Made by a program: the position numbers and the translations under genes. Of a stretch of DNA of 64,000 bases, positions 38,275 through 62,290 are shown one piece after another. Source of the DNA: Planotetraspora mira. GTDB taxonomy: Bacteria > Actinomycetota > Actinomycetes > Streptosporangiales > Streptosporangiaceae. Location: positions 310,001 through 374,000 of the forward strand of contig NZ_BOOO01000013.1 in assembly GCF_016863275.1 (NCBI RefSeq), written 5' to 3'. The notes beneath the pieces are model-generated. The model worked only from the letters and a program-made list of their open reading frames with translations. It was not told where the DNA came from and searched no databases. Position 1 is the first letter of the stretch; every line of letters starts with the position of its first letter.

Positions 38275-38718
38275 TTGATCACGGAAACCACCGGCGACCT
38301 GCTACGCGATGACGCTCAGGCCCTCGTCAACACCGTCAACACGGTCGGCGTCATGGGCAGGGGGATCGCCCGGCAATTCAAGCGGGAGTTCCCGGACGTT
38401 TTCACCGCCTATGCCGAGGCCTGCGCGGACGGCCGCGTTCAGCCGGGCCACATCCTTCCCGTACGGCTGGGCGACGGCGACCGCTGGGTCCTCAATTTCC
38501 CCACCAAGCGCCACTGGCGGCAACGGTCGCGTCTGGACGACGTCGAGGCCGGACTGGATGATCTGGCCCGGATCCTCGTCCGCCTGGACATCCGAAGCGT
38601 CGCGGTTCCGCCGCTGGGCTGCGGCAACGGGGGCTTGGACTGGTCCCAAGTCCGTCCGCTCATCTTCGAGAAGCTCGGTGGCCTCGAAACCGATATCAGG
38701 CTCTACGGGCCGGGTTGA
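38275..38718 (+). CDS. DarG-like macrodomain protein without a DarT partner
   Basis: 147 residues from a TTG, GGAG 8 nt upstream. Opening ITETTGDLLRDDAQALVNTVNTVGVMGRGIARQFKREFPDVF matches the DarG/ADP-ribosyl-hydrolase macrodomain (ADP-ribose-binding NTVNxxGxMGxGIA). Middle and end: PTKRHWRQRSRLDDVEAGL and VPPLGCGNGGLDW. Full DarG is about twice as long, with a C-terminal domain, and sits beside the DarT DNA ADP-ribosyltransferase. No DarT frame is found in the flanking DNA. It may be a solo antitoxin removing ADP-ribose from thymidine in DNA, or a remnant. Confidence 0.82.
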   Translation: MITETTGDLLRDDAQALVNTVNTVGVMGRGIARQFKREFPDVFTAYAEACADGRVQPGHILPVRLGDGDRWVLNFPTKRHWRQRSRLDDVEAGLDDLARILVRLDIRSVAVPPLGCGNGGLDWSQVRPLIFEKLGGLETDIRLYGPG

Positions 38719-39571: not shown

Positions 39572-40519
39572 CTACGTCCTGAGGTGCCGGGCGTCCTCAG
39601 AATGTTGCGAGTTCGGCGCACCGAGCAGGCGGGAGATGCTGCGGGCGGTGGAAAGGACCAGCGGCACGAGATGGGCCGGTTCCGCGCCCTGATGATTGAC
39701 CACCAGGGACAGCGCGGCCACGACCTCGTCGCCGGCGCCGTAGATGGGGGCCGCGACCGTGAAGGCGTCCTCGGTGACCTGGCGGTCACTGAGCGCGTAG
39801 CCCCGGAGCCTGACCTCGGCCAGCACCCGGCGCAGCCTCACCGGATTGTCGATCGTGTAACGGGTGAAGGTCTGCAGCGGCTCGGCGAGCACCTGCTCCT
39901 GGATCTCGGGGGGCGCGTGCGCGAGCAGGACCAGGCCGCCTCCGGTCGCGTGGATGGCGAAGCGCCCGCCGACCCGGGTCAGGGTGGGCACCGCACCTCG
40001 TCCGGAGATCCGCTCGACGAAGACCACGGCCGGGCCCTCGCGCACCGAGAGCTGGACGTTCTCATGGGTCGCCTCGTACAGGTCCTCCATCAGCGGCAGC
40101 GCGACATCGCGCAGCGGAAGGCCCCGGGGGGCGAGCGAGCCGAGTTCCCACAGCTTCAGGCCGATCCGGAACTTCCCGTCCGGGCCGCGCTCCAGCGCGC
40201 CCCAGGCCGTCAGCTCGCCGAGGAGCCGGTGCGCCGTGCTGAGCGGGACGTCGGCCAGCCTGCTGATCTCCGACAGCGTGAGCTCCGGCTGGGCGGCCGT
40301 GAACACGTCAAGGAGTGCGAGCAGCCGCGAGCTGACGCTCCGGCTCCCATCCGCGCCGCCCGCGCTGCCCGCGCCGCCCGCGCTGCCCGCGCCGCCCGCG
40401 CCGCCCGCGCTGCCCGTGCCGCCCGCGCCGGACGGTCTGGAAGGCCCGGACGTGCTGCCCGCGCTGGACGGTCTGGACGGTCCGGACGCGCCGCCCGCGG
40501 CGGGTGAACGGTACGTCAT
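39572..40519 (-). CDS. IclR-family transcriptional regulator with Gly/Ala/Ser low-complexity N-terminus
   Basis: 315 residues. The first about 55 are almost entirely Gly/Ala/Ser/Pro (nt repeat 40352-40432), and no alternative start lies downstream, so this tail is probably translated. Then the IclR winged helix (about 60-110: VSSRLLALLDVFTAAQPELTLSEISRLADVPLSTAHRLLGEL) and the ligand-binding domain (FAIHATGGGLVLLAHAPPEIQEQVLAEPLQTFTRYTI). Last gene of the Rieske-reductase-P450 operon, so likely its regulator. Confidence 0.85.
   Translation of the reverse strand: MTYRSPAAGGASGPSRPSSAGSTSGPSRPSGAGGTGSAGGAGGAGSAGGAGSAGGADGSRSVSSRLLALLDVFTAAQPELTLSEISRLADVPLSTAHRLLGELTAWGALERGPDGKFRIGLKLWELGSLAPRGLPLRDVALPLMEDLYEATHENVQLSVREGPAVVFVERISGRGAVPTLTRVGGRFAIHATGGGLVLLAHAPPEIQEQVLAEPLQTFTRYTIDNPVRLRRVLAEVRLRGYALSDRQVTEDAFTVAAPIYGAGDEVVAALSLVVNHQGAEPAHLVPLVLSTARSISRLLGAPNSQHSEDARHLRT
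40352..40432 (-). repeat. 9-bp tandem repeat encoding the low-complexity N-terminus of the IclR regulator
   Basis: Nine tandem 9-bp units of CGCGCCGCC/CGCGCTGCC type. On the minus strand they encode GGA and GSA triplets at the start of the IclR-family protein. Such arrays slip easily, so length may vary between strains. Confidence 0.85.
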
Positions 40520-40532
40520 CCCACCGATCTCC

Positions 40533-41768
40533 TCATCTGCTCCGGACGGCGGCCTTCTCCACCCGGATGGGGGCGCTGGAGAATCCGCGCAGGGTGTTGT
40601 TCGGTCTCGGCTCAGGTGCGGCCGTGGGCGTCAGCGTCGCCGCGCGTCTGGCGAGCGCGGTCAGGACCACGTCGCCTTCGAGGCGTGCCACTTGCTGGCC
40701 GACGCAGCCGTGGATGCCCGTTCCGAACCCGACGTGCCCCGCGGTCCGGCGAGTGACGTCGAGTGTATGGGGATTGATCCATTTGCGGGGGTCACGATTC
40801 GCGGCGCCGAGGAACAGCAGGATCTTCTCTCCGGGGCCGATCCGCACCCCGCCGAGGTCCACCGTCCGGGTCGTCGTGCGGAAGAAGGTCTGGACGGGGG
40901 ATTCGAACCGGATCGCCTCTTCGAAGGCCAGCTTGGCCAGTGCCGGGTTCTCGTGGACCCTCGCCCACTGGCCGGGGTGCGCGGCCAGTGCGGCGAGCGC
41001 GTTTCCGATGGCGTACACCGTCGTGTCGATCCCGGCGCTGAGCAGCGAGCGGACCAGCATCGCCGCCTGCTCGGGGGTGATCCGGCCGGTGTCGGCGAAG
41101 GCCCAGATGTCCTGGCCCAGGCCACCCGCGGCGAGGTTCTCCCGGCGGCAGGCCTCGTTGATCCACTCCTGGATACGGGCCGCGTCCGCCATCGCCTCGT
41201 GGAACAGGTCGTTGCGGGGGCCGAAGCCGTTGAAGGCCATGCCGCCGTACGGCATCAGGTTCTCCCTGCCCTGTTCCGGCAGCCCGAGGGCGTCCGGGAA
41301 TACCCGCAGCGGGAAGACCTCGGCGAGGTCGCGGACGGCGTCGAAGGTGCCGCGCTCGACCAGGTCGCCCACCAGTGCCTCGGCCGCGGCGGCGAACTCC
41401 TCACGCAGGCCGCGAACCCTCCGCGAGGACAGGACCTCCGTCATGACCTCGCGGACGCGGGTGTGGTCCGGCGGGTCGGCCTCCAGGAGCAGGCTCGGGA
41501 CCCGCCACGGCTTCTCCTTGCGGAAGTCGGCGAGCCCGACGCCCGAGGCGGAGGAGAAGGCCCGCCAGTCGGTCAGCGCCGCGAAGACCTGTTCGTGACG
41601 CGCGGACGCCCAGATCCCGTAGTGCGAGAGCCGGATGACGGGGCCGGCCTCACGCATCCGCTCGTGGCGGGGATACGGGTCGGCCAGGAACGATCGGCTG
41701 AACGGGTCGTCGTCCAGGACGGGGACGGACGGGCCGGGCCCGGATGAGGTGGTCGTTCCTGAGGTCAA
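40533..41768 (-). CDS. Cytochrome P450
   Basis: 411 residues, class I bacterial size. I-helix oxygen-binding AGIDTT (about 245-250), K-helix ExxR in EEAIRFES, and the heme-binding loop FGTGIHGCVGQQVARLE (Cys ligand at about 362). It shares the order of motifs with CYP199-like aromatic acid monooxygenases, including LLLEADPPDHTRVREVMTEVLS, but substrate assignment is tentative. It lies 68 nt after a VanB-type reductase that may supply electrons, and 13 nt before the IclR gene. Confidence 0.9.
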   Translation of the reverse strand: MTSGTTTSSGPGPSVPVLDDDPFSRSFLADPYPRHERMREAGPVIRLSHYGIWASARHEQVFAALTDWRAFSSASGVGLADFRKEKPWRVPSLLLEADPPDHTRVREVMTEVLSSRRVRGLREEFAAAAEALVGDLVERGTFDAVRDLAEVFPLRVFPDALGLPEQGRENLMPYGGMAFNGFGPRNDLFHEAMADAARIQEWINEACRRENLAAGGLGQDIWAFADTGRITPEQAAMLVRSLLSAGIDTTVYAIGNALAALAAHPGQWARVHENPALAKLAFEEAIRFESPVQTFFRTTTRTVDLGGVRIGPGEKILLFLGAANRDPRKWINPHTLDVTRRTAGHVGFGTGIHGCVGQQVARLEGDVVLTALARRAATLTPTAAPEPRPNNTLRGFSSAPIRVEKAAVRSR

Positions 41769-41836
41769 TGGGTCCTCGCTCTGCTGGTTTCCAGTGGCCT
41801 GGCTTCCGTGACGGGTTCATTCGCGGCGGGCGGGTT

Positions 41837-42784
41837 TCAGAGGTCGAGCACGAGCCTTTCGCCCAGGCAGCGGGAGACGCAGATCATCATGGTCGTCCCA
41901 TCGGCGCGCTCGTCCTCGGTCAGCAACGAGTCCCGGTGGTCGGGCGTCCCCTCGAGGACGTCGGTCTCGCAGGTGCCGCAGGTGCCCTCCTGGCAGGAGG
42001 AGAGCACCGGGATCCCGGCGGCCTCGACGCACTCCAGGACGGTCTGCCCGGGGCCGACCGTGAGAGTGAGCCCGGACTGCGCGAGCACCACCTCGAACAT
42101 GCCGTCGCGGTCGTCGTGGATCGCTTCCCGGGGTGTGAACCGTTCGACGCGCAACATCTCCCTGGCCCGCGCCCCGCAGGCGTCCTCGAGAGCCGTGAGC
42201 AGCGGTTCCGGGCCGCAGCCGTAGACGAGCGTGTCCCGCGTGGCCTCCTCGAGGAACCCCCGAAGGTCCAGCAGGCCGTGCCCGTCCTGCGGGCGGACCA
42301 GGACGCGGTCGCCGTACCGGTCGAGGACGTCGAGGAACGCCATCGAGCGCCGGGTCCGCCCGCCGTAGAGCAGTCTCCAGCGGGCGCCCCCGGCGTCCAC
42401 CTCCGCGATCATCGGCAGCAGGGGGGTGATGCCGATGCCTCCGGCGACGAAGAGGTACGAAGGCGCGTCCTCGAGTTCGAAGTGGTTGCGCGGGCCGCGG
42501 ACGAGGATCCGGTCACCCGTGGACAGCGAGTCGTGCACGTAGGACGAGCCGCCCCGGCCGTCCGGTTCGCGCAGCACGCCGAGCCGGTATGCCGACGGGT
42601 CCGCCGGGTCGCCGCACAGGGAGTACTGCCGCACCAGCCCGTCGCCCAGGACGAGGTCGATGTGCGCCCCCGGCCGCCAGGAGGGCAGCGGGGTCCCTTC
42701 GGCGTGGCCGAGCACCAGGCCGACCACGCCGTCGGAGACGACGGTCTTCTCCCGGACGACGGTTACGAACTCCGGTTCGCGCAT
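41837..42784 (-). CDS. Phthalate dioxygenase reductase-like (VanB family) oxidoreductase
   Basis: 315 residues. Order of domains: FMN-binding reductase (RPGAHIDLVLGDGLVRQYSLCGDP), NAD-binding (YLFVAGGIGITPLLPMIAEVD, YGCGPEPLL), and a C-terminal 2Fe-2S ferredoxin with CQEGTCGTCETDVLEG and a final Cys in MMICVSRCLGE. It carries electrons from NADH to a Rieske oxygenase or P450. Located 6 nt after the 77-residue gene and near both the Rieske and P450 genes, so it could serve either or both. Confidence 0.92.
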   Translation of the reverse strand: MREPEFVTVVREKTVVSDGVVGLVLGHAEGTPLPSWRPGAHIDLVLGDGLVRQYSLCGDPADPSAYRLGVLREPDGRGGSSYVHDSLSTGDRILVRGPRNHFELEDAPSYLFVAGGIGITPLLPMIAEVDAGGARWRLLYGGRTRRSMAFLDVLDRYGDRVLVRPQDGHGLLDLRGFLEEATRDTLVYGCGPEPLLTALEDACGARAREMLRVERFTPREAIHDDRDGMFEVVLAQSGLTLTVGPGQTVLECVEAAGIPVLSSCQEGTCGTCETDVLEGTPDHRDSLLTEDERADGTTMMICVSRCLGERLVLDL

Positions 42785-42790
42785 CGCGGA

Positions 42791-43024
42791 CTAACGGGAG
42801 AGAGCCGGTTCGTGGACCGGCGGCGGGGGTTCCGCGGAGCCGGGCGGGTTCACGTGACCCTCCGGGTGCCGCAGCAGCCAGTCCCACAACTCGACGGGGT
42901 CTTCGAACCGCCGCCGCGCACCGCAGTGGCAGATCCCGAGCAGCAGGTCCGTGCCCGGCACCCATTCGACCGTGAAGACCGTCTCGGAGTCCGTCCTGTC
43001 CCTGAGGCCGGCCACGGCGGTCAT
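42791..43024 (-). CDS. 77-residue protein with a CxC motif, coupled to the Rieske oxygenase gene
   Basis: The ATG overlaps the oxygenase stop by 4 nt. The centre reads GICHCGARRRFEDPVELWDWLLRHPEGH, where CHCG could bind metal. No family recognised; the size and coupling suggest an accessory factor for the oxygenase or reductase. Confidence 0.65.
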   Translation of the reverse strand: MTAVAGLRDRTDSETVFTVEWVPGTDLLLGICHCGARRRFEDPVELWDWLLRHPEGHVNPPGSAEPPPPVHEPALSR

Positions 43025-44103
43025 CCCGTGGCCGCGGTGCTCGGGGCGCGGGCGGGCTCGGCTCCCTCTCCCGCCGCGATCTGCGCCGCGATCAGACGGC
43101 GGGCGGCCAGGCCGCCGGTGTCGATGTTGATGCTCAACTCCTGGTAGCCGTCGCGTTCGGCGGCGAGCACCTCGGCCAGTTTGTTCAGCGCGACGACGTC
43201 CTGGAGCACGACGGTCCTGTTGCTCTCGCGCAGGAAGTCGGACACCCCCTCGTCGTCCCGGGCGAAGTCGCGGGCGACGGCCCAGAAGTCGTGCGTGGAG
43301 TTCTCCGTCTCCGGGGTGATCGCGTACACGACCTCGACGTGGAAGCCGCCGGGGTCGGAGCCGTCGGCGTCCGGGAGCACGCCGACCGGCGCGACCCTGC
43401 TGTGCAGCAGGTAGAGGCACGGCGGGTGGTACTCGATGTCCTGCCAGCGCACGATGCGCCCGGTGATCCCGGTGGACTTGGCGTAGAACGGCGGGCAGGC
43501 CGCGTCGTCCATGTGCCTGCTGACGTAGATGATCTGCTGCTCGTCGTCGACCTCGGTGCGGATCGGCGTGTCGGCGACCTCGGGAGTCCCGATGTAGCCG
43601 CCGTGCAGGTACGTCTCGTGCGACAGGTCCAGGAGGTTGTCGACCAGCAGGCCGTAGGGGGCGTTCAGCGGCTCCATGCCGTACACGCTGGTCCACTCCG
43701 GGTGGTCGAGCCACGGCGCGCGGGGGATGTCGGCCGGGTCCGCCTTGTCCTTGTCGCCGATCCACACCCACACGAAGGAGTCCTGCTCCACGACCGGGTA
43801 GGCGGGCACGCGGGCGGTCCGCGGGATCCTCCGCTGTCCCGGCACGGCGACGCACGTCCCCGACGGGTCGTAGGTGAACCCGTGGTAGCCGCACACCACG
43901 TTGTCGCCGTCGAGGTGGCTCTCGGACAGCGGGAACCTGCGGTGCACGCAGTGGTCCGACAGCGCGATGACCTGTCCGGCCTGAGTCCGGTAGAAGACCA
44001 GGGCCTCGCCGAGGATCGTGCGGGGCAGCAGCTTCCGGTTGATCTCGTTGCCGTACGCGGCGACGTACCACCGGTTCCTGGCGAATTTGACTGGGAAGCC
44101 CAC
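43021..44103 (-). CDS. Vanillate O-demethylase-like Rieske oxygenase alpha subunit
   Basis: 360 residues from a GTG (AGGACGG upstream), beginning VGFPVKFARNRWYVAAYGNEI like VanA. Rieske 2Fe-2S ligands: CVH and CGYH (about residues 47-70). The mononuclear iron triad begins with DNLLDLSHETYLH (Asn/Asp, His, His at about 147-160). VanA-type enzymes demethylate methoxylated aromatic acids or oxidise similar rings using the neighbouring VanB-type reductase. Sequence features do not fit KshA. First gene of the minus operon, with a palindrome in the upstream gap. Confidence 0.9.
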   Translation of the reverse strand: MGFPVKFARNRWYVAAYGNEINRKLLPRTILGEALVFYRTQAGQVIALSDHCVHRRFPLSESHLDGDNVVCGYHGFTYDPSGTCVAVPGQRRIPRTARVPAYPVVEQDSFVWVWIGDKDKADPADIPRAPWLDHPEWTSVYGMEPLNAPYGLLVDNLLDLSHETYLHGGYIGTPEVADTPIRTEVDDEQQIIYVSRHMDDAACPPFYAKSTGITGRIVRWQDIEYHPPCLYLLHSRVAPVGVLPDADGSDPGGFHVEVVYAITPETENSTHDFWAVARDFARDDEGVSDFLRESNRTVVLQDVVALNKLAEVLAAERDGYQELSINIDTGGLAARRLIAAQIAAGEGAEPARAPSTAATG

Positions 44104-44195: not shown

Positions 44196-44286
44196 GTATC
44201 GAGACGCAGATCACTTTTCGGCACGCTTCCACTGACCAGAAGGGCGGTTGTCATGGCCGCCCTCCACACGACCGGTGGGTGGCGGT

Positions 44287-45063
44287 GTGAACCACGGAAC
44301 ACAGGCCCTCGTGGAGGTGCGCGACCTGACCCTGCGGTTCGGCGGGGTGACGGCGCTGGCGGACGTCGCGTTCGACGTCGGCGAACGGCAGATCTGCGGG
44401 TTGGTCGGCCCCAACGGCGCGGGCAAGTCGTCGCTGTTCAACTGCGTCAACGGCTACTACCGGCCGTCAGGGGGGAGCATCCGCGTCGGCGGGGTGGACG
44501 TGCTGAGCGTGCCCGCGCACCGGACGGTGCGGCTCGGGATCGCCAGGACGTTCCAGCACCCCACACTCCAGCCGGACCGCACCGTCCTGGACAACGTGCT
44601 GCTGGGCGGGCACAGCACGCTCTCCGGCACCGTGCTGTCGGCCATGCTGGCCCTTCCCGGCGAAAGGCGCAGGGAACGCGAGCTCGTCACCCGGGCCAGG
44701 GAACTGCTGGGCTCGCTCGGACTCGCGGGCGCGGAGCGGACATCCGCGGGCGACCTGCCGTACGGGTCGCAGAAGCGGGTCGAGATCGCCAGGGCGCTGC
44801 TGAGCGGGCCGCGGCTGCTGCTCCTCGACGAGCCGGCCAGCGGGCTGACGCACAGCGAGGTCGGTGAGGTCGGCGAGCTGATCACGCGCATCCGCGCCGA
44901 CCACGGCCTGACCGTGATCGTGGTCGAACATCACATGGGCCTGATCTCCGCCGTCACCGACCACGTCGTGGCACTGGTCAGCGGCAGGAAGGTCGCGGAG
45001 GGGACCGCGCAGGCCGTGCAGTCCGACCCGGTCGTCGTCTCCGCCTACCTGGGGGCGGCGTGA
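44287..45063 (+). CDS. Branched-chain-type ABC transporter ATP-binding protein LivG-like
   Basis: About 258 residues from GTG 44287. Walker A VGPNGAGKSS, extended Liv-type loop (ARTFQHPTLQPDRTVLDNVLLGG), signature-type LPYGSQKRVEIARAL, Walker B LLLLDEPASGL and H-loop VVEHHMGL. It is the first gene of a five-gene Liv-type importer, divergent from the Rieske operon. Substrates of such transporters include aromatic acids as well as amino acids; context suggests aromatic or steroid-derived compounds. Confidence 0.9.
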   Translation: MNHGTQALVEVRDLTLRFGGVTALADVAFDVGERQICGLVGPNGAGKSSLFNCVNGYYRPSGGSIRVGGVDVLSVPAHRTVRLGIARTFQHPTLQPDRTVLDNVLLGGHSTLSGTVLSAMLALPGERRRERELVTRARELLGSLGLAGAERTSAGDLPYGSQKRVEIARALLSGPRLLLLDEPASGLTHSEVGEVGELITRIRADHGLTVIVVEHHMGLISAVTDHVVALVSGRKVAEGTAQAVQSDPVVVSAYLGAA

Positions 45064-45767
45064 GCACGCTCGAGCTTCGCGGCGTGCACGCCGGCTACGG
45101 CAAGGCCCAGGTGCTGCACGACGTGAGCCTTCACGTCGGCGACGGCTCGATCACGACCCTGCTGGGCGCCAACGGCGCGGGGAAGACGACGACGCTGCGC
45201 GCGATCAGCGGCCTGGTCCGGTCGACCGGGGAGATCCTCATCGACGGCCGGCCGATCCCGTCCGCCCCCGACGCCGTGGCCAGGCTCGGCGTCGCGCACG
45301 TCCCCCAGGGCAGGGGGACCATCGGGCAGCTCAGCGTCGACGACAACCTGAAGGCCGGGGCGCTGCTGCGGCGAGACCGCGTGCAGGCCCGCGCCGACCT
45401 GCGGCGGCTGCGCGAGTTGTTCCCCGTCCTGGGGGAGCGGGCGCAGTCGCAGGCGGCGGGTCTGTCGGGCGGTGAGCAGCAGATGCTGGCCATCGCGCGG
45501 GCACTCATGGGACGCCCATCGATCCTGCTGCTCGACGAGCCGTCGCTCGGCCTGGCCCCGCTGATCACCAAGGAGCTGTTCGTCCTGCTTCCCCGGCTTC
45601 GCGACGAGTGGGGCCTCACCGTGCTGGTGGTCGAGCAGAACGCCGACCTGGCGCTGAGCGTCGGCGACCACGCGGTCGTGCTCGAGTCCGGGCGGGTCGT
45701 GCTGACGGGCACCGCGCGGGAGATCTCCGGCCATGACGAAGTCCGACGCGCCTACCTGGGGAACTGA
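45060..45767 (+). CDS. Branched-chain-type ABC transporter ATP-binding protein LivF-like
   Basis: 235 residues with Walker A GANGAGKTTTL, VPQGRGTIGQLSVDDNL, signature LSGGEQQMLAIARAL, Walker B LLLDEPSLGLAP and VVEQNADLAL. It starts at a GTG overlapping the previous gene by 4 nt. Second ATPase of the Liv-type importer. Confidence 0.93.
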   Translation: MSTLELRGVHAGYGKAQVLHDVSLHVGDGSITTLLGANGAGKTTTLRAISGLVRSTGEILIDGRPIPSAPDAVARLGVAHVPQGRGTIGQLSVDDNLKAGALLRRDRVQARADLRRLRELFPVLGERAQSQAAGLSGGEQQMLAIARALMGRPSILLLDEPSLGLAPLITKELFVLLPRLRDEWGLTVLVVEQNADLALSVGDHAVVLESGRVVLTGTAREISGHDEVRRAYLGN

Positions 45768-45770
45768 CCG

Positions 45771-46652
45771 ATGAACCTTCTGCAGCAGGTGCTCGACGGA
45801 CTCAGCTCCGGATCGGTCTACGCCACGCTCGCCCTGGCGCTCGTGCTCGTCCACCGGTCGACCGGGATCGTGAACTTCGCACAGGGCCAGATGGCCGTGA
45901 TCTCCACGTACGTCGCGTGGACCCTCTACGACGCCGGGGTGCCCGTCTGGGGCGCGATCGGGGCGGCGATCGTGCTCTCCCTGGTCGTGGGGGCGCTGGT
46001 CGAACGGTTCCTGATCCGCAGGTTCGAAGGCGGGGAGCCGCTCGCCGCCATCGTGGTCACGGTCGGGCTGCTGATCTCCGTCAACGGGCTGGTCAGCCTG
46101 ATCTGGGGGACCGTGCTCAAGCAGTTCCCCTCGGCCTTCCCCTCGGGCGGCGTCGGCTCGGGAAGCGGCGGCACGATCGGGTACGGCACGCTCGGCACGA
46201 TCGGGGCGCTGCTCGTCGTCGTGCTGGCCCTCAACTGGCTGTTCCGGCACACCCGGCTCGGCCTCGCCTTCCGTGCGGTCGCCGCCAACCCCGAGTCGAG
46301 CGCGCTGCTCGGCCTCCCGGTGGGCAGGCTGCTCATGCTCGGGTGGGGGCTCGCCGCCGCGGTCGGCGCGCTGGCCGGCTGCCTGGTCGCCCCGAAGCTG
46401 TACCTCGCCCCGGAGATGATGGACTCGGTCCTGACCTACGCGCTGGCCGCCGCCGTGCTCGGCGGCCTCAACTCGGCGCTCGGCACCGTGCTGGCCGCCT
46501 GGTTCATCGGCGTGGTCGAGAACCTCGCGGGCACCTACGTCTCGTTCGTCGGCGGCGACATGAAGATCGCCGTGCCGCTCGTCCTGATGGTCCTCATCCT
46601 GCTGCTCAAGCCCGAAGGCGTCTTCGGCCACAAGGAGGTGCGGCGGGTATGA
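45771..46652 (+). CDS. Branched-chain-type ABC transporter permease LivH-like
   Basis: 293 residues with about eight membrane spans. The loop LTYALAAAVLGGLNSALGTVLAAWFIGVVENLAG matches LivH permeases, as does the opening MNLLQQVLDGLSSGSVYATLALALVLVHRSTGIVNFAQG. It lies 3 nt after the LivF-like gene and 4 nt overlapping the LivM-like gene. Confidence 0.93.
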   Translation: MNLLQQVLDGLSSGSVYATLALALVLVHRSTGIVNFAQGQMAVISTYVAWTLYDAGVPVWGAIGAAIVLSLVVGALVERFLIRRFEGGEPLAAIVVTVGLLISVNGLVSLIWGTVLKQFPSAFPSGGVGSGSGGTIGYGTLGTIGALLVVVLALNWLFRHTRLGLAFRAVAANPESSALLGLPVGRLLMLGWGLAAAVGALAGCLVAPKLYLAPEMMDSVLTYALAAAVLGGLNSALGTVLAAWFIGVVENLAGTYVSFVGGDMKIAVPLVLMVLILLLKPEGVFGHKEVRRV

Positions 46653-47668
46653 GCGTCGTGGTCGACGAGCCCGCGGTCACGGACGGCGGCGGGACCTCCC
46701 GCCGGCGGCGCGGGCGCGCGCTCACCGCGGTGGCGCTGGTCCTGGTGTTCGCGGTCTTCCCGCTGGTCATGAGCCCCTTCGCCAACCTGCAGGTGACGCT
46801 GATCCTGGTCTACGCCGTCGCGATCCTCGGGCTGGACATCCTGGTCGGCTGGACGGGCCAGGTCTCGCTCGGGCAGAGCGCGTTCTTCGGGATCGGCGCG
46901 TACGGCGTCGCGGCCGGCGCCGTGCACGGCTGGCCGGTCTGGGCCGGGCTGCTCCTCGGCACGGCCGTCGCCGGCGTGGTGGGCTGCCTCGTGGCCATCC
47001 CCGCCGCACGGCTGCGCGGCTACGCGCTGGGAATGATCACGCTGACGCTGCCGGTGGTCGCGGTGCCCCTCGCCAAGCGGATGGAGGTCGTGACCGGCGG
47101 CGCGCAAGGGCTCAACGTCACCATCGTCCAGGCCCCGGGGTGGACCGGGCTGGCCGCCGACCAGTGGCGCTACTACGTCGTCGGCATCGGCGCGGCGATC
47201 GTCTTCGCCCTGGCCGCCGCCCTGCGGCGCGGCCGCTTCGGGCGGGCGTTCGACGCCATCCGGGTCAACGAGGCGCTGGCGACGGCGCAGGGTGTCCACG
47301 TCACCCGGTACAAGGTGCTGGCCTTCACGCTGTCGTCCGTCTACGGCGGGGTCGCGGGAGTGCTGTACGTCGTGGCCGTGCAGTTCATCTCGCCGGAGAC
47401 ACTCGTCCTCACGCTCAGCATCTCGATGCTCGCCGGGCTCGCGATCGGCGGCCTGCGCAGCCTCCTCGGCTGCGTGCTCGGCGCCGCGTTCTACGTCGTC
47501 GTGCCCAACCTCACGGGGTCCGTGAGCGCCGGCCAGTCCTACCTCCTGTACGGCGTCTGCCTGCTCGTCGTCATGCTCCTGATGCCCAGGGGCGTCGCCC
47601 CGGCGCTCGGCCACGCCGTACGGCGAGTGGCGAACCGGCGGGAGAGGGCGGCCGCCTCTGGTGAGTGA
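46649..47668 (+). CDS. Branched-chain-type ABC transporter permease LivM-like
   Basis: 339 residues from an ATG overlapping the previous stop, AAGGAGG upstream. N-terminal charged tail of about 28 residues, then membrane spans including AILGLDILVGWTGQVSLGQSAFFGIGAYG, which is the LivM signature, and AFDAIRVNEALATAQGVHVTRYKVLAFTLSS. It closes the inner-membrane complex; the binding-protein gene follows after 103 nt. Confidence 0.93.
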   Translation: MSVVVDEPAVTDGGGTSRRRRGRALTAVALVLVFAVFPLVMSPFANLQVTLILVYAVAILGLDILVGWTGQVSLGQSAFFGIGAYGVAAGAVHGWPVWAGLLLGTAVAGVVGCLVAIPAARLRGYALGMITLTLPVVAVPLAKRMEVVTGGAQGLNVTIVQAPGWTGLAADQWRYYVVGIGAAIVFALAAALRRGRFGRAFDAIRVNEALATAQGVHVTRYKVLAFTLSSVYGGVAGVLYVVAVQFISPETLVLTLSISMLAGLAIGGLRSLLGCVLGAAFYVVVPNLTGSVSAGQSYLLYGVCLLVVMLLMPRGVAPALGHAVRRVANRRERAAASGE

Positions 47669-47771
47669 ATCCGCTCCCTGTCCCTCCTACTACGCGCTTC
47701 CTGACTTTTTCTGATCTTCCCGATTTGTCGCCATCCCCCAACCATTCGCGACCTACTACAAAGGGTTGAAC

Positions 47772-49001
47772 ATGAATCAAGCGCAATCACGAGTTCTCCG
47801 GGCCGGAGTCCTGCTCGCGGCCGCTGTGCTCTCGCTCGCCGCGTGCGGGCGTGGCGGCACGTCCTCGTCCGGCTCGCAGACGCCCGGGATCACCGACACG
47901 ACGGTGAAGATCGGGGCGAGCTACGCGCTGTCCGGCCCGCTGGCCGCCAACGGCACGGCCGCGATGAACGGCGCGAAGTCCTACTTCGACGCGATCAACG
48001 CCCAGGGCGGCGTGAAGATGTCCGACGGCAAGACCCGCAAGATCGAGGTCGTCAAGTACGACGACGGGTACGACCCGGCCCGCGCCGTCCAGAACTACAA
48101 GAAGCTGACCACCCAGGACAACGTCTTCGCGCTGTTCCAGACGTTCGGCACGGCGCCCAACCTCGCGATCATGGACTCGGCGAACGCCGAGAAGGTGCCG
48201 CAGTTGTTCGTGCACAGCGGCGCCGCCGTCTTCAGCCAGGACCAGCAGGCCAAGCCGTACACGGTCGGCTGGCAGCCGACCTACGAGACGGAGGGGGCGG
48301 CCTACGCCAAGTTCCTCACCGCCCAGGACAAGGACGTGACCGTCGCCGTCATCTCCCAGAACGACGACCTCGGCAAGGCCTTCGTCAACGGGTTCACCTC
48401 CGGGATCGCGGGAAGCAAGGTCAAGATCGTCGCGCAGGAGACGTACCAGGCGACCGACCCGACGCTGGACAGCCAGGTCACCAAGCTGGCCGCCTCGAAG
48501 GCGGACGTGCTGTTCTCCGCGATCGCCATCCCGAAGCTGACGGCGGGGGCGTTGTCGAAGGCCGCCGAGCTCGGCTGGAACCCCGAGCACCTGCTGGTCA
48601 GCCTGGTCTCCTCCGTGGACCAGGTGATCAAGCCCTCGGGACTGGACGGTTCGCACGGCATCTACAGCACCGCGTTCGTGAAGGCGGCCGACGACCAGCA
48701 GTGGGCGACGGACAAGGACGTGCAGGACTACATCGCCCGGATGAAGACGAGCGCTCCCGGCGCGGACCCGACCGTCCCGAACGCGGCCTGGGGATACGGC
48801 GCCGCCGCGACCCTGGTCAAGGCCCTCCAGGAGACGAAGACCGTCACCCGTGACGGTCTCGTGCAGGAGATCCAGAGCCTGTCCGGCGCGGTGCCGCTGC
48901 TCCTGCCCGGCCTGGAGTTGCACGCCTCGCTGGACGGACCGCCGATCAAGGAACTGCACGTCCAGCAGTTCAAGGACGGCAAGTGGAGCCTGGTCGACTG
49001 A
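47772..49001 (+). CDS. Branched-chain-type ABC transporter substrate-binding lipoprotein
   Basis: 409 residues from an ATG preceded by AAGGG. Lipobox LSLAAC (Cys at about 23), then a Ser/Gly-rich linker and a periplasmic binding fold of the LivK/aromatic-acid type (TVKIGASYALSGPLAANGTAAMNGAKSYFDAINAQGGV). This family binds branched-chain amino acids, amides, urea or aromatic acids; the divergent Rieske/P450 operon and the Hsa genes make an aromatic or steroid-derived ligand likely. Confidence 0.9.
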   Translation: MNQAQSRVLRAGVLLAAAVLSLAACGRGGTSSSGSQTPGITDTTVKIGASYALSGPLAANGTAAMNGAKSYFDAINAQGGVKMSDGKTRKIEVVKYDDGYDPARAVQNYKKLTTQDNVFALFQTFGTAPNLAIMDSANAEKVPQLFVHSGAAVFSQDQQAKPYTVGWQPTYETEGAAYAKFLTAQDKDVTVAVISQNDDLGKAFVNGFTSGIAGSKVKIVAQETYQATDPTLDSQVTKLAASKADVLFSAIAIPKLTAGALSKAAELGWNPEHLLVSLVSSVDQVIKPSGLDGSHGIYSTAFVKAADDQQWATDKDVQDYIARMKTSAPGADPTVPNAAWGYGAAATLVKALQETKTVTRDGLVQEIQSLSGAVPLLLPGLELHASLDGPPIKELHVQQFKDGKWSLVD

Positions 49002-49062: not shown

Positions 49063-50136
49063 TCACCCCCCGAGCACGAGCGGGCCGAGCCGGGCGCGGT
49101 GCCAGGCGGCGTCGCCGAACAACTTGGCGGCGGAGTGGGCCCGTTTGAAATACAGGTGCGCCTCGTGCTCCCAGGTGAAGCCGATCCCGCCGTGCAGCTG
49201 AACGGTCTCGGCGGCCACCGCGGAGAAGGCCTCGGCGCAGTACGCCTGGGCCGTCGCCGCGCGCACCGCCAGGTCGGGGGCGCCGGAGGCGAGTGCGCGG
49301 GCCGCGTCGTAGCTGACCGAACGGGCGGATTCGACCAGGACGTAGAGGTCGGCCAGCCGATGCCTGATCACCTGGAAGGAGCCGATCGGCCGGCCGAACT
49401 GCTCCCTGGTCTTCACGTGATCCCGCGTCATCTCCAGGCAGCGCTCGCCGCCGCCGAGTTGCTCGGCGCTGATGGCGGTGGCGGCGACCGCGATGAGCCG
49501 TTCGAGCACGCGGTGCCCGTCGGCGCCGATCAGCCTCACCGGGGCCGCGTCGAAGGTCACGCGGGCCTGGGGCCTGGTCAGGTCGAGCGTGGCCAGCGGC
49601 TCGACGCGCACGGCCGGAGTGGAAGGCTCCGCGACGTAGACGGCCAGGTCGCCGTCCCGCGTTCTGGCGGGCACGACGAACAGGTCCGCGCGTGCGCCGT
49701 CGAGCACGTGATCCTTCACCCCCGTCAGCCTGCCGTCCTCCACGTGGGCCCGGATCGCGGCCGGGTCCCATGTCCCGCTCTCCGCCCAGGCCAACGCCGC
49801 GACACGGCTGCCGTCGGCCAGGCCGGGCAGCGGTTCCACGGCTCCGCACGCGAGCAGCGCCTCGGTGGCGAGGACCGCCGAGCCGAGATAGGGCACCGGA
49901 GTGAGGGTGCGGCCCAGCTCCTCGCACACCACGTGGGTCTCCATCGCCGTGCCGCCCGCCCCGCCGTAGGCCTCGGGCACGGCGAGCCCGAAGGCGCCCA
50001 CCTGCTCCGCGAGCAGCCGCCACGCGGTCTCGTCGTAACCGGGATCCGCGTCGGGCGCGGGCCGGGCCGGCGGGTTGCGCCCGAGGACGGCGCGCACGGT
50101 GCGGCGCAGCTCCTCCTGCTCGACGGTCGTGATCAC
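49063..50136 (-). CDS. Acyl-CoA dehydrogenase (FadE-like)
   Basis: 357 residues with the shortened N-terminus seen in actinobacterial steroid-associated FadE subunits. Blocks: QVGAFGLAVPEAYGGAGGT near the start, KTREQFGRPIGSFQVIRHRLADLYV in the middle, and QLHGGIGFTWEHEAHLYFKRAHSAAKL at the end. Divergent by 67 bp from a second, larger acyl-CoA dehydrogenase. In mycobacteria such unequal pairs form alpha2beta2 steroid side-chain or ring enzymes. Confidence 0.9.
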   Translation of the reverse strand: MITTVEQEELRRTVRAVLGRNPPARPAPDADPGYDETAWRLLAEQVGAFGLAVPEAYGGAGGTAMETHVVCEELGRTLTPVPYLGSAVLATEALLACGAVEPLPGLADGSRVAALAWAESGTWDPAAIRAHVEDGRLTGVKDHVLDGARADLFVVPARTRDGDLAVYVAEPSTPAVRVEPLATLDLTRPQARVTFDAAPVRLIGADGHRVLERLIAVAATAISAEQLGGGERCLEMTRDHVKTREQFGRPIGSFQVIRHRLADLYVLVESARSVSYDAARALASGAPDLAVRAATAQAYCAEAFSAVAAETVQLHGGIGFTWEHEAHLYFKRAHSAAKLFGDAAWHRARLGPLVLGG

Positions 50137-50174
50137 GGCGGCCCCAAGAGTCCGGCGACGGTGCTCTATTTATG

Positions 50175-50193
50175 CCTAACAACTGTTTGGTAG
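50175..50193. promoter_or_regulatory. Imperfect inverted repeat between the two acyl-CoA dehydrogenase genes
   Basis: CCTAACAAC-TGTTTGGTAG contains the core palindrome AACA-AC-TGTT. It lies 11 bp before the plus-strand GTG and 39 bp from the minus-strand start, in the shared promoter region. The spacing is not the KstR pattern as I recall it (AAC-N2-GTT). Possible TetR/IclR site. Confidence 0.55.
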
Positions 50194-50203
50194 ATTATCA
50201 GTC

Positions 50204-51367
50204 GTGAGTCGCGGCGAGGCGTTCAGGCGCGAGGTCAGAGCCTGGCTCGAGGACGGTCTGACGGGCGAGTTCGCGGGTGCGCGCGGGCTCGGCGGGCCGG
50301 GCCGCGAGCACGAGGCGTTCGACGTCCGCCTCGCCTGGGAGCGCCACATGGCCGCCGCCGGCTTGACCTGCCTCGGCTGGCCCGAGCGGTACGGCGGGCG
50401 TGACGCGAGCATCGAAGAGCAGGTCGTCTTTCACGAGGAGTACGCACTCGCGCGGGCTCCCGCCCGGGTGAACCACATCGGCGAGAACCTGCTCGGCCCG
50501 ACGATCATCGCGTTCGGTACGGATGAGCAGCGCCGGCGCCTCCTGCCGCCGATCGTGGCCGTCGAGGAGCTGTGGTGTCAGGGCTACTCCGAACCCGGCG
50601 CCGGCTCCGACCTGGCGAACGTGCAGACCCGTGCGGCGCTCGACGGCGGGCGGTGGCGGATCAGCGGCCAGAAGGTGTGGACGTCCCTCGCGACGGAGGC
50701 CGACTGGTGCTTCGTCATCTGCCGGACGGAGCCCGGATCCACCCGCCACCGGGGGCTGTCCTACCTGCTGGTGCCCATGCGGCAGAACGGCGTGGAGGTC
50801 AGGCCGATCGTCCAGATGACCGGGACGAGCGAGTTCAACGAGGTCTTCTTCGACGGGGCCCTGACCGACGGGGCGAACATCGTGGGCGCGCCCGGCGACG
50901 GCTGGAGGATCGCCATGGCCACCCTCGGCTTCGAGCGCGGCGTGGCGACCCTCGGTCAGCAGGTGGGCTTCCGCGGGGAGCTCGAGGGCGTCATCGAACT
51001 GGCCCGCGAGACCGGGGCCGTCGCCGACCCGCTGCTGCGCGACCGGCTCGTCCGCTCCTGGATCGGCCTGGAGGTCATGCGGCTCAACGCGGTCCGCACC
51101 ATGGCGGGCGTCGCGGCGGGCGCGCCGGGGCCCGAGTCGTCCATCTCCAAGCTCGTGTGGGGCACCTGGCACCGGGAGCTGGGCGAGCTGGCCATTGACG
51201 TGCTCGGGGCGGCCGGCATGGTCGCGGACGGCCGGCCGTACGACCTGAGCGACGTGCAGCGGCTCTACCTGTTCTCCCGAGCCGACACCATCTACGCCGG
51301 CTCGAACGAGATCCAGCGCGACATCATCGCCGAGCGTGTGCTCGGCCTGCCCCGGGAGGCACGGTGA
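50204..51367 (+). CDS. Acyl-CoA dehydrogenase (FadE-like)
   Basis: 387 residues from a GTG. Contains EELWCQGYSEPGAGSDLANVQTRA and DGWRIAMATLGFERGVATL, and near the end DIYAGSNEIQRDIIAERVLGLPR, the FadE C-terminal motif. It is the likely partner of the divergent 357-residue subunit. Probably dehydrogenates an acyl-CoA from the steroid or ring-degradation pathway. Downstream IclR gene on the same strand. Confidence 0.9.
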   Translation: MSRGEAFRREVRAWLEDGLTGEFAGARGLGGPGREHEAFDVRLAWERHMAAAGLTCLGWPERYGGRDASIEEQVVFHEEYALARAPARVNHIGENLLGPTIIAFGTDEQRRRLLPPIVAVEELWCQGYSEPGAGSDLANVQTRAALDGGRWRISGQKVWTSLATEADWCFVICRTEPGSTRHRGLSYLLVPMRQNGVEVRPIVQMTGTSEFNEVFFDGALTDGANIVGAPGDGWRIAMATLGFERGVATLGQQVGFRGELEGVIELARETGAVADPLLRDRLVRSWIGLEVMRLNAVRTMAGVAAGAPGPESSISKLVWGTWHRELGELAIDVLGAAGMVADGRPYDLSDVQRLYLFSRADTIYAGSNEIQRDIIAERVLGLPREAR

Positions 51368-51443
51368 ACCCGCGCCCCTTCCCTCGGGCCCATGCCGTTG
51401 CTAGATTCCACGGCAAGAATTCATTTCAGTTTCGGGAGGTTCG

Positions 51444-52334
51444 ATGACCGCCCTCAGCGCCGAGCCCGAACCGACGACACCCGCACGGCGGGAGCTGCCG
51501 CTCTCGATGGTCGAGCGGATGACACTGATCATGGATGCCTTCGCCGGCCGCTCCACCCGCCTCACCCTGGAGGACGTGGCCCGCTCCACCCACCTCCCAC
51601 GCTCGACCGCGCACCGGATCCTCGACCAGCTCGTACGGCTGGACTGGCTCGACCACACGTCCTTCGGATACAGCCTGGGGCGGCGCGCGCTCGGTCTGGG
51701 CGGCAGGAACGGAAGCCACGGCGAGATCCGCGAGGCCGCCGCGCCGCTGCTGCACAACCTCCAGATCAAGACCGGGATGGTCGTCCACCTGGCGGTCCTC
51801 GACGGGTCGGACGTCTTCTACCTGGACAAGGTCGGCGGCCGGTTCGCCCTGTCCGTGCCCTCCCGCGTCGGAGGCAGGGCTCCCGCCCACTCCACGGCGC
51901 TGGGCAAGGCGATCCTCGCCTGGCTCGAGCCGGAGCAGGTCGAGGCGCTGGTCGGCCGCTCCATCAGCCGGCTGACCAGCCGCACGATCGGCGACATCGG
52001 CACCCTGCACCAGGAGCTCAACCGGATCAGGCAGCGCCGGGGGCTGGCCTTCGAACGGGGGGAGTGCTTCCCGAACATCGCCTGCGTCGCGGCGGCGATC
52101 CGCGGGCATGAGGGGCCGGTGGCGAGCATCTCCCTGGTGGGCGACGCGCGCATGCCGCTGGAGAAGGTCGCCCCTCTCGTGGTGGACGCCGCGCGGCAGG
52201 CCTCGCTGGCCTTCTTCCCCGATCTCGACTCGCCGCGGCGATCTCGCCGGGCCAGGAGGGCGCCGGACCGGACGTGGTCCTCCGAGAGCATGAACCGTTT
52301 CCTCACCGTCGGCCAGGACGGCGACTGGCTCTGA
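51444..52334 (+). CDS. IclR-family transcriptional regulator
   Basis: 296 residues, GGGAGG upstream of ATG. N-terminal winged helix at about 25-85 (LPLSMVERMTLIMDAFAGRSTRLTLEDVARSTHLPRSTAHRILDQL). The IclR effector domain follows (GMVVHLAVLDGSDVFYLDKVGGRFALSVPSRVGGRAPAHSTALGKAILAWL). IclR proteins commonly control aromatic and steroid catabolic genes. Sits 76 bp after an acyl-CoA dehydrogenase gene and beside the hsaB-like gene. Confidence 0.93.
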   Translation: MTALSAEPEPTTPARRELPLSMVERMTLIMDAFAGRSTRLTLEDVARSTHLPRSTAHRILDQLVRLDWLDHTSFGYSLGRRALGLGGRNGSHGEIREAAAPLLHNLQIKTGMVVHLAVLDGSDVFYLDKVGGRFALSVPSRVGGRAPAHSTALGKAILAWLEPEQVEALVGRSISRLTSRTIGDIGTLHQELNRIRQRRGLAFERGECFPNIACVAAAIRGHEGPVASISLVGDARMPLEKVAPLVVDAARQASLAFFPDLDSPRRSRRARRAPDRTWSSESMNRFLTVGQDGDWL

Positions 52335-52352
52335 TCCTCCACGGCTGTGGGG

Positions 52353-52928
52353 TTACCCCCAGTGGTCGCCCCAGCCCCAGAGGTTGGCGAGCGCGGGCTG
52401 CACGGGGGGCTCGTGGCCGTCGACGCCGAACCGGCCGCGGAAGAAGAGCATCGGGCGTTGCTCGGTGATCTGTTCCAGTTCGAGCACCCGGCCGATCACC
52501 ACGTCGTGGTCTCCCGCCACATGCACGTCGTGCACCTCGGCGTGGATCCTGAGCAGCACGTCGGGCAGCGCGGGGGTGCCCCACCGGGACGGGTGCCAGC
52601 CGAGCCCGTCGAACTTCTTCCCCTTGCTGGAGCCGAACCGGCCGCAGATGTCGACCTGCTCCTCGCCCAGGACGTTGACGCAGAAGAGTCCCGAGTTCCT
52701 GATCCTCGGCCAGGTGCGGCCGTTGTGATCGGCGCAGAAGAGGATCAGCGGAGGCTCGAGGGAGACCGAGGCGAACGACTGGCACGCGAAGCCGACCGGC
52801 CCGCCGTCGTCGATCCCGGTGACGATCGTCACGCCGCTCGCGAACATTCCCATCGCGCGGCGGAACTCCGCGGGCGTGGGCGGAGCCACGCCGACAGGGT
52901 GTGTCGTCAGGGCGGGCTCAGCTGTCAT
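52353..52928 (-). CDS. hsaB: Flavin reductase (HsaB-like)
   Basis: 191 residues. Typical FMN/FAD reductase: GMFASGVTIVTG, GFACQSFASVSLEPPLILFC, FCVNVLGEEQ, and the C-terminal LFFRGRFG. It would reduce flavin for the HsaA oxygenase, which hydroxylates the phenolic steroid intermediate. Sequence and location beside HsaD and KstD support HsaB, but the family is broad. Transcribed opposite to HsaD. Confidence 0.8.
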   Translation of the reverse strand: MTAEPALTTHPVGVAPPTPAEFRRAMGMFASGVTIVTGIDDGGPVGFACQSFASVSLEPPLILFCADHNGRTWPRIRNSGLFCVNVLGEEQVDICGRFGSSKGKKFDGLGWHPSRWGTPALPDVLLRIHAEVHDVHVAGDHDVVIGRVLELEQITEQRPMLFFRGRFGVDGHEPPVQPALANLWGWGDHWG

Positions 52929-53161
52929 GCGGTCACCTCGAGTTCGGCGTCTCAGCCGCCGCGTCGCGGCGTCTGCAAAACGACGTTAAGCCCCGGGCTG
53001 TTCCCGGCCGACGGCGGATCCCGTTGAGTGGACGCCGCCCGCGCACCCCGGCGCCGCCGGCGGCGGGCCCCGGGGGTCTCGCTCATCGGGATGATCATCA
53101 CGGCGGGCCGGTGACGTCGATTACCGTCCCCGGGAGCCGACCCTCCTATGACTGGGGCGAT

Positions 53162-54031
53162 ATGACCACGGAGCTGACCTACGAGTCGACGGCGCGTGAG
53201 CTCGCGACCGACCAGGGAGTGCTGCGTTATCACGAGGCCGGTGAGGGCCCGCCGCTGCTGCTTCTGCACGGCTCGGGTCCCGGGGTCACCGGCTGGCGGA
53301 ACTTCCGCGGCAACCTGCCCGTGTTCGCCGACCACTTCCGCTGCCTGGTCCTCGAGTTCCCCGGGTTCGGAGTCAGCGACCCGACCGGCGAGCACCCCAT
53401 GGTGGCCGCGAACGGCGCGGTGATCCGCTTCCTCGACGGGCTCGGGCTCCAGCAGGTCGACGTGATCGGCAACTCCATGGGCGGCGTCGTGGCCGCCCAG
53501 TTGGCGATCGCCCGTGCCGACCGCGTGCGCAGGCTGGTCACCATCGGCGGCATCGGCAGGAACCTGTTCAGCCCCGGCCCGGGTGAAGGCATCAACCTCC
53601 TCATGGAGTTCACCGAGGAGCCCACCAGGGAGGCGCTCGTCCGGTGGCTCAACTCCATGGTCTACGACCCGGCGCTCGTCACCGAGGAGCTGATCGAGGA
53701 GCGCTGGGCCCAGGCCACCGACCCGGCGACGCTGGCCGGCGCGCGCCGCATGTACGGCAGGGCCGCGTCCGCGGCTCGTACGGCGGCGTTCGCCCGCTCG
53801 GACGCTCCGCCGTACTGGGCGATGCTGCACAGGCTCAAGGCCAAGACATTGATCACGTGGGGCCGTGACGACCGGGTGAGCCCGGTCGACATGGCGATCC
53901 TGCCGATGCGCACGATCCCCGACGCCGAGTTGCACATCTTCCCCGACTGCGGTCACTGGGTGATGATCGAGCAGAAGGCCGCCTGGGAGAGCGTCGTGCT
54001 CGGCTTCCTGACGAGGAAGGACGCCCAGTGA
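53162..54031 (+). CDS. hsaD: meta-cleavage product hydrolase (HsaD-like)
   Basis: 289 residues, alpha/beta-hydrolase. Oxyanion region LLLLHGSGPG, nucleophile S105 in IGNSMGG, Asp in TWGRDDRVSP and His in FPDCGHWV near the C-terminus. Matches the BphD/HsaD family: hydrolyses the ring-cleavage product of HsaC between C5 and C6. The start ATG was preferred over earlier ones because the sequence begins TTELTYESTARELATDQG. Overlaps the following KstD-like gene by 4 nt. Confidence 0.88.
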   Translation: MTTELTYESTARELATDQGVLRYHEAGEGPPLLLLHGSGPGVTGWRNFRGNLPVFADHFRCLVLEFPGFGVSDPTGEHPMVAANGAVIRFLDGLGLQQVDVIGNSMGGVVAAQLAIARADRVRRLVTIGGIGRNLFSPGPGEGINLLMEFTEEPTREALVRWLNSMVYDPALVTEELIEERWAQATDPATLAGARRMYGRAASAARTAAFARSDAPPYWAMLHRLKAKTLITWGRDDRVSPVDMAILPMRTIPDAELHIFPDCGHWVMIEQKAAWESVVLGFLTRKDAQ

Positions 54032-56726: not shown

Positions 56727-56833
56727 ACCCGCCCCGCGTTCCTGCCGGTTCCCACTGAGCGGGAAAGCGCGCACCGGCGGGGAGCCGTGACTGGAACCGT
56801 GGAAATCCCGAGGGCCGATCGCAGGAGGACTGG

Positions 56834-57619: not shown

Positions 57620-57632
57620 GGGTGAGACAGCA

Positions 57633-58517: not shown

Positions 58518-58554
58518 TCACCAGGGACTCCCAGCCACAAGGAGATCGACCCCC

Positions 58555-59577: not shown

Positions 59578-59585
59578 GAAAAGCC

Positions 59586-60770: not shown

Positions 60771-60816
60771 CGCGCTCCGGCCGATCATCTGGACGGGTTA
60801 ATAGGACTAAACTCCC

Positions 60817-60839
60817 AACGGTCAACAATGTTGCCCGTT
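60817..60839. promoter_or_regulatory. 23-bp inverted repeat upstream of the Gly-rich gene
   Basis: AACGG-T-CAACA-A-TGTTG-C-CCGTT, one mismatch (T/C), centred on 60828. It lies 47 bp after the hsaA stop and 13 bp before the TTG start of the Gly-rich gene. A well-formed operator, indicating that the Gly-rich gene has its own regulation. Confidence 0.75.
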
Positions 60840-60851
60840 AGGTGAGCGGCT

Positions 60852-62027: not shown

Positions 62028-62066
62028 GTCCGGTACGCCGGGAGGACGCCGAGAGCGCGGTGGCGG

Positions 62067-62140
62067 TGAGTCCGCTCCGCGCTGCTCCTCTTGAGTCCGC
62101 TCCGCGCTGCTGCTCCTGAGTCCGCTCCGCGCTGCTCCTT
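62067..62140. repeat. Three 25-bp tandem repeats downstream of the Gly-rich gene
   Basis: TGAGTCCGCTCCGCGCTGCT begins each of three copies starting at 62067, 62092 and 62117. They lie in the untranslated gap before hsaC; no coding or clear hairpin role was seen. Confidence 0.8.
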
Positions 62141-62290
62141 GTGAGGCGGTCGAAGTCGCCGTAGACGGGGACTCTCACTCAGCGGGAGCCCCGAGGCGGC
62201 AGCACGCCCTGTCTGTCACTTTGGGGTGGACGACGGCCGCTCGCTCAGGCCAGGCCCGAGCGTGGGTGCAGCGAGATCGGCACCGGCAGA

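Follow-up and report, generated by a model that had tools for sequence, protein, structure and literature searches.

What a protein of 77 residues adds to an operon that already encodes two oxygenases and a reductase, and to which of the two oxygenases it belongs, is the question raised by a locus of the actinobacterium Planotetraspora mira. The locus lies in a stretch of 64,000 nucleotides (nt) that was analysed as a whole and is referred to as the window (assembly GCF_016863275.1, contig NZ_BOOO01000013.1, positions 310,001 to 374,000). The operon is made up of five co-directional genes on the minus strand, which encode a VanA-like Rieske oxygenase, the 77-residue protein (the product of the small gene), a VanB-type reductase, a cytochrome P450 and an IclR-family regulator (Table 1). 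vanA and the small gene overlap by 4 nt, and the gaps that follow are 6 nt (small gene to vanB), 68 nt (vanB to P450) and 13 nt (P450 to IclR gene). A preliminary description of this DNA had grouped the first four genes in one operon, exactly where they are found on the minus strand, and had not mentioned the IclR gene.

The reading favoured here, to which a probability of roughly 55% is attached, is that the operon serves the O-demethylation of methoxybenzoates, acids derived from lignin, that the small protein is a third component, a metal-holding domain that binds VanA, and that VanB is most likely shared between VanA and the P450. Gene content, orthology, the degree to which the small gene and its motif are conserved and the active-site residues of the P450 are shown directly, whereas the substrates, the sharing of VanB and the role of the small protein are inferred.

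The small gene and type II VanA

VanA enzymes have been divided into type I of Proteobacteria, type II of Actinobacteria (Rhodococcus jostii RHA1 and Streptomyces NL15-2K) and type III of Rhodococcus ruber R1, with at least 60% identity to RHA1 VanA as the rule for recruitment into type II and 36% identity between RHA1 and R1 VanA, according to the available text of Donoso et al. (PMC9867520). The window VanA matches the Rieske domain (PF00355, 70.4 bits) and the VanA C-terminal domain (PF19112, 145.5 bits), both above cut-off, and is 67.8% identical to RHA1 VanA over 351 columns, which is above the 60% line and classes it by sequence as a type II VanA; the window VanB is 58% identical to that of RHA1. 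Eight residues (C52, H54, C71, H74, D159, H162, H167 and D302) are invariant in 16 aligned VanA members, and we take the CxH...CxxH pattern to hold the Rieske cluster and DxxHxxxxH with the later Asp to hold the mononuclear iron. The VanAs of the nearest named loci, both from Planotetraspora, are 98% and 90% identical to that of the window. Among the reference sequences, the RHA1 genome (G912) was recognised by a 4-kb stretch of its second contig that is 100% identical to pRHL1 with equal coordinates, and the locus carrying R. ruber R1 vanAB (L189) by exact matches to both published R1 primers. The two pairs are 36% (VanA) and 37% (VanB) identical as computed here, in agreement with the published VanA value.

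The small gene is present in 118 of 125 type II vanA loci and in none of eight type III-like loci, one of which is the R1 sequence itself. These non-redundant counts come from pooled searches (128 type II loci minus three duplicates) that include loci found via the small protein, and about eight of the 125 came to light by way of the small gene alone, which biases the count in its favour. The individual Rieske-anchored sets, which overlap slightly, agree: the small gene follows vanA in 79 of the 80 best of 582 named actinobacterial loci, in 20 of the 25 genomes with a close VanA in a class sample of 296, and in two of three plasmid loci (a fourth, near-identical plasmid was left out). In the family that holds RHA1, called Mycobacteriaceae here by inference, 19 of 251 genomes matched at E 1e-60, and the small gene occurs in all 11 loci at 67–73% VanA identity compared with none of the eight at about 36%. 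RHA1 itself has the order vanA, small gene, vanB, IclR. The gene is annotated as hypothetical on a Pseudonocardia plasmid and is unannotated in the listed, itself incomplete, annotation of the Streptomyces NBC_00342 plasmid.

The position of the gene is equally regular. In 101 of the 118 loci its start overlaps the vanA stop by the same 4 nt, an ATGA arrangement that likely couples its translation to that of vanA. Where vanB is adjacent, the small gene is found in 115 of 119 type II loci; in Microtetraspora malaysiensis it directly follows vanA although vanB is not adjacent, three solitary type II vanA genes lack both vanB and the small gene, and in two loci that have it the sequence ends before the position of vanB could be seen. 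A second VanA-like Rieske protein, 43% identical and found in Microtetraspora and one relative, has a small gene of its own, further downstream in a LigAB-type ring-cleavage operon. On a VanA tree (FastTree, with some weak branches), the 118 loci with the small gene all fall within a single clade of 123 rows that has 100% local support, and the type II loci L042 and L225 branch outside this core clade and lack the gene. From this distribution, the small gene was probably present early in this core clade and lost several times afterwards.

A homologue search had been proposed in the preliminary description, against the chance that the small gene would be absent from all homologous operons, and the counts above show it to be present in most. 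A profile search of the phylum matched 13 of 396 genomes at E 0.01 (eight strongly, five weakly at E 6e-4 to 0.007), and a plasmid search matched four of 72,556 records, each of them from Pseudonocardia or Streptomyces. That the gene is a chance open reading frame (ORF) in a GC-rich overlap can be ruled out, since it is conserved in position in more than 100 other loci and its nonsynonymous divergence (dN) is well below the synonymous (dS) in comparisons with two Planotetraspora species (for the 50 core codons, dN/dS of 0.009/0.08 and 0.13/0.49). The 77-residue ORF is thus a real gene.

The small protein goes with VanA and not with the P450. A P450 gene follows vanB in just 10 of the 117 type II loci with more than 2.5 kb of downstream sequence, and most small-gene loci have none; two of these ten Rieske-reductase-P450 operons lack the small gene, and none was found around PbdAB, the P450-reductase pair of RHA1. 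The preliminary description, which had listed the protein with all three enzymes, stands corrected in this respect.

No recognised family matches the 77-residue protein, as had been claimed: Pfam and NCBIfam, ferredoxin families included, gave nothing at E up to 1, and PHROGs gave no match. A Pfam scan of 35 members left 34 without a match and one with a chance match (Peptidase_S15, E 0.11), and a sequence search of solved structures in the PDB returned chance matches alone. Members are 48 to 120 residues long, with starts chosen by script, and share a core of about 45 residues that is rich in Trp and in acidic rather than basic residues. Across 120 sequences, Leu28, Cys32, Cys34, Pro43, Trp47 and His53 (window numbering) are invariant where present. 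The pattern C-x-C-x18-H-x(1-3)-H, with the second His 2–4 residues past the first, occurs in all 119 complete members, the sole exception to the Cys2His2 set being the 120th, a frameshifted and shortened sequence.

The AlphaFold model of the whole protein has a mean predicted local distance difference test (pLDDT) score of 76, with block means above 92 for residues 21 to 50. The core domain (mean pLDDT 86) is predicted to fold as β-β-β-α, a helix preceded by three short strands; in the model the two Cys come right behind the second strand, and the two His sit where the helix ends and beyond it. With such models, no Foldseek match had an E below 1 and no VIA-align match a Z above 3.7. The predicted layout resembles that of a C2H2 zinc finger whose Cys are spaced CxC and which has one strand more, a resemblance that no family or fold match backs as kinship.

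Two small actinobacterial genomes (L063, L064) encode weak relatives of the small protein with a CxCG...HP pattern (CECG...WVLGHP) and no Rieske match in the neighbourhood; these relatives may point to a wider family of CxCG mini-proteins. In one genome, both the small gene and the P450 gene appear frameshifted (L199, 3773–6156), through sequencing errors or decay. The operon around the second, 43% identical Rieske protein (L156, 158–5024; L036, 9200–15284) is of a meta-cleavage type and encodes LigA, LigB, a LigK-type aldolase, a PIG-L protein and the second small CxC protein; its substrate is possibly syringate or methylgallate.

The P450 and its source of electrons

Cytochromes P450 are assigned to a family above 40% identity and to a subfamily above 55%. 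The best solved relatives of the window P450 are CYP199 enzymes, and at 54% identity to RHA1 PbdA (recognised because its 397 aligned residues are identical to 9g9q) it falls within the CYP199 family and, on the PbdA comparison only, just below the line for subfamily A. All the PbdA substrate-binding residues that were checked, as named in the available part of PMC11530827, are kept in the window P450 (Arg84, Ser87, Leu90, Phe173, Phe176, Arg236, Ser237, Ala241, Thr245, Val288 and Phe291), and the carboxylate clamp (Arg84, Ser87 and Ser237) is kept in all nine other operon P450s as well. Between the two Phe residues lies an Ala that the same source ties to veratrate use by PbdA (PMC11530827), in a column one off its number 174; the window has Gly at this position and the other nine operon P450s have six Ala, two Gly and one Thr. 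PbdAB is described there as acting on p-methoxybenzoate, veratrate and isovanillate with no ferredoxin, PbdB reducing its P450 PbdA directly (PMC11530827).

The operon has no ferredoxin gene of its own, as the preliminary description had observed. The window VanB matches PF00111 and PF00175 above cut-off and PF00970 below it (17.0 of 21.1 bits), aligns over nearly its full length with phthalate dioxygenase reductase (PDR; 2pia), and has among its nearest solved structures the reductase domains of 780-residue P450 chains. It is 59% identical to PbdB and has no close PDR-type counterpart in the genome, where the next such reductase is 31% identical and encoded elsewhere in the window. The ten loci with a P450 after vanB are the window, two of Planotetraspora, four of Mycobacteriaceae, one Pseudonocardia plasmid and two of another family, the latter being those without the small gene; the pattern needs about five changes on the VanA tree, and the VanBs of these operons branch among ordinary VanBs without forming a single P450-linked group. 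It is most likely, as far as gene context and relatives can tell, that one VanB feeds both VanA and the P450. The earlier proposal that a single reductase may serve two oxygenases is supported by genome context alone, and its principle, as PbdAB illustrates, is not novel.

The competing explanation, that the P450 draws on another ferredoxin of the genome and not on VanB, is less likely. Ten Fer4_13 matches lie elsewhere in the genome and weigh against a shared VanB, since the P450 could use a general ferredoxin, and CYP199A4 of Rhodopseudomonas palustris has been used with HaPux and HaPuR (PMC10825196, in the part available). Against it stand the repeated placement of a P450 gene after vanB and the likeness of VanB to PbdB, the cognate partner of PbdA.

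By analogy with these relatives, the CYP199 enzyme would remove the para-methyl group, converting veratrate to vanillate and p-methoxybenzoate to 4-hydroxybenzoate, and the type II VanA would remove the meta-methyl group, converting vanillate to protocatechuate. Overall, veratrate would yield protocatechuate and two formaldehyde, with VanA and, most likely in this genome, the P450 too drawing their electrons from the one VanB. Matches to protocatechuate-type dioxygenases (PF00775) are present elsewhere in the genome, and a relative of the operon adjoins a pca cluster in Streptomyces NBC_00342.

Possible roles of the small protein

The best guess is that the small protein serves VanA as a zinc-holding accessory subunit, or as a folding or docking aid. 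An accessory role is favoured on three counts: the gene is coupled to vanA, its product has an invariant Cys2His2 set, and it is linked to two clades of VanA. The 77-residue protein would then be a small Cys2His2 metal-binding domain, probably occupied by zinc, made in step with VanA, which it would bind so as to aid folding, metal loading or the docking of VanB.

Several observations weigh against this reading. The gene is missing from seven of the 125 type II loci, five of them inside the core clade (L157, L221, L229, L200 and L201) at about four separate positions on the tree, and such repeated loss stands against an accessory role. L200 and L201 retain vanA-vanB-P450 without it, and, in the available text of PMC9867520, type III VanAB of R. 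ruber R1 functions in a foreign host without any small gene. Since core-clade loci lack it, the small gene is not strictly essential to every type II enzyme; it is presumably useful but not indispensable. VanA columns that change with loss of the small gene numbered 12, whereas 200 random draws of five rows gave 2.0 on average; since 12 was reached in at least one of the draws and some rows lacking the gene lie on long branches, the count was not used.

It is unlikely, though not far-fetched, that the protein is instead a metallochaperone or iron-sulfur assembly factor that loads the mononuclear iron or Rieske cluster of VanA without becoming a lasting subunit. Its CxC and HxxxH pairs could hold iron transiently, it is coupled to vanA translation, and loss in some lineages would suit a helper whose task general machinery can take over; the paired Cys and paired His of a compact β-β-β-α domain look more like a fixed zinc site, however, and no known assembly factor family was matched. 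A regulator, either a one-finger DNA- or RNA-binding protein or a partner of IclR that tunes the operon, is improbable. The C2H2-like motif and an IclR gene near 103 of the 128 type II loci (counted before duplicates were removed) speak for it, but coupling to vanA predicts enzyme-level amounts, the core is Trp-rich and acidic rather than basic, and some loci retain the small gene with no IclR gene found in the vicinity. That the protein passes electrons between VanB and either VanA or the P450 is very improbable: the gene does lie beside vanB in 115 loci and a Rieske-type cluster is likewise held by two Cys and two His, but VanB has a 2Fe-2S domain of its own, PbdB (PMC11530827) reduces its P450 directly, and the vanA-vanB-P450 operons L200 and L201 do without it. 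The preliminary description had suggested a new electron-transfer or assembly factor; the former is the weakest reading, and an assembly factor or accessory subunit would fit better.

Neighbourhood, significance and known systems

Table 1. Features of the operon and its surroundings in the window.
Feature	Position	Strand	Basis
vanA, type II VanA-like Rieske oxygenase, 360 residues, GTG start	43021..44103	-	PF00355 and PF19112 over cut-off; 68% to R. jostii RHA1 VanA; tree
Small gene, 77 residues, third gene of type II van operons	42791..43024	-	translation; no family; 118/125 type II loci
ATGA overlap, small-gene start within vanA stop	43021..43024	-	sequence; identical 4-nt overlap in 101/118 loci
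C32-x-C34...H53-x3-H57 motif, candidate Cys2His2 metal site	42854..42931	-	both Cys and first His invariant; second His in 119/119 complete members
vanB, PDR/VanB-type reductase with C-terminal 2Fe-2S domain, 315 residues	41837..42784	-	PF00111 and PF00175 over cut-off; nearest solved structures
CYP199-type cytochrome P450, PbdA-like, 411 residues, TTG start	40533..41768	-	solved relatives; PbdA active-site residues conserved
IclR-family regulator	39572..40519	-	PF01614, PF09339; best NCBIfam match PcaR/PcaU/PobR subfamily, under its cut-off
Branched-chain-type ABC importer genes and substrate-binding protein, divergent from operon	44248..49001	+	ORFs; presumed families

The IclR regulator likely controls the operon; its N-terminus (40340–40519) is a stretch of about 58 residues rich in Gly, Ser, Ala and Pro that precedes the DNA-binding domain. 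The divergent genes, which we take to encode a branched-chain-type ATP-binding cassette (ABC) importer, could possibly serve the uptake of the acid substrates, and three ORFs of this region are common to two Planotetraspora loci. Further away lie a presumed actinobacterial steroid catabolism-like run (49063–63241), with acyl-CoA dehydrogenases and what we take to be KstD-, KshB- and Hsa-like ORFs, and an ORF at 38275–38718 that is presumably macrodomain-like. The reductase at 55707–56726, the only ORF of the steroid-like run that was scanned, has Fer2, FAD and NAD domains. On a Streptomyces NBC_01431 plasmid (L042, 5620–13184), a 58% identical VanA-like Rieske protein and VanB without the small gene lie beside non-ribosomal peptide synthetase (NRPS) and shikimate-like genes, and this type of oxygenase may therefore also serve natural product synthesis.

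The enzymes of the operon are of known kinds, and a P450 with a PDR-type reductase and no ferredoxin has already been published (PbdAB). New are the third, small gene that recurs in type II van operons, RHA1 included, and the repeated joining of CYP199 to the van operon. An open-access literature search returned no report of a vanillate operon with a gene between its vanA and vanB, which is no proof of absence as the key older papers lie outside its coverage. Tentatively, type II vanillate O-demethylases, that of RHA1 included, could be three-component enzymes: in most actinobacteria with this enzyme, VanA would have as a working subunit a Cys2His2 metal mini-protein of about 50–90 residues, which the 'two-component' description and two-gene constructs would have left out. 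If actinobacterial enzymes do need the third protein for stability or full activity, every two-gene type II transplant would be incomplete, the missing component being one gene of about 150–270 nt, and the protein would represent a new kind of small partner for Rieske oxygenases. O-demethylation by VanAB is a bottleneck in microbial lignin valorisation, and these Rieske enzymes are described as hard to engineer, in the accessible text of PMC13288931. With the order vanA, small gene, vanB, CYP199, one natural operon with just one reductase would lead all the way from veratrate to protocatechuate.

Compared with known systems, the small protein is predicted to resemble C2H2 zinc fingers in having two Cys near a hairpin and two His at a helix end, and differs from them in its CxC spacing, where CxxC is usual, in its extra strand and in having no sequence match to finger families. 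Type III VanAB of R. ruber R1 likewise pairs a Rieske oxygenase with a VanB-type reductase for meta-methoxybenzoates, as the available text of PMC9867520 has it; its VanA is only about 36% identical, and in operons of its type vanA and vanB lie 1 nt apart with no small gene between them. The CYP199A4-HaPux-HaPuR system contains a related P450 that carries out para-demethylation of veratrate (PMC10825196, in the part available), but it employs a separate ferredoxin and ferredoxin reductase. PbdAB of RHA1 has a P450 of 54% identity with the same active-site residues and a reductase of 59% identity; it differs in being a separate locus with its own reductase, in the order reductase then P450, and in that no small gene was found near it. 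The type II VanAB systems of RHA1 and Streptomyces NL15-2K are described as two-component, and the available printed text mentions no third gene. RHA1 shares the vanA-small gene-vanB order with the window (VanA 68% and VanB 58% identical); in RHA1 the IclR gene adjoins vanB, whereas in the window the P450 gene is inserted between the two.

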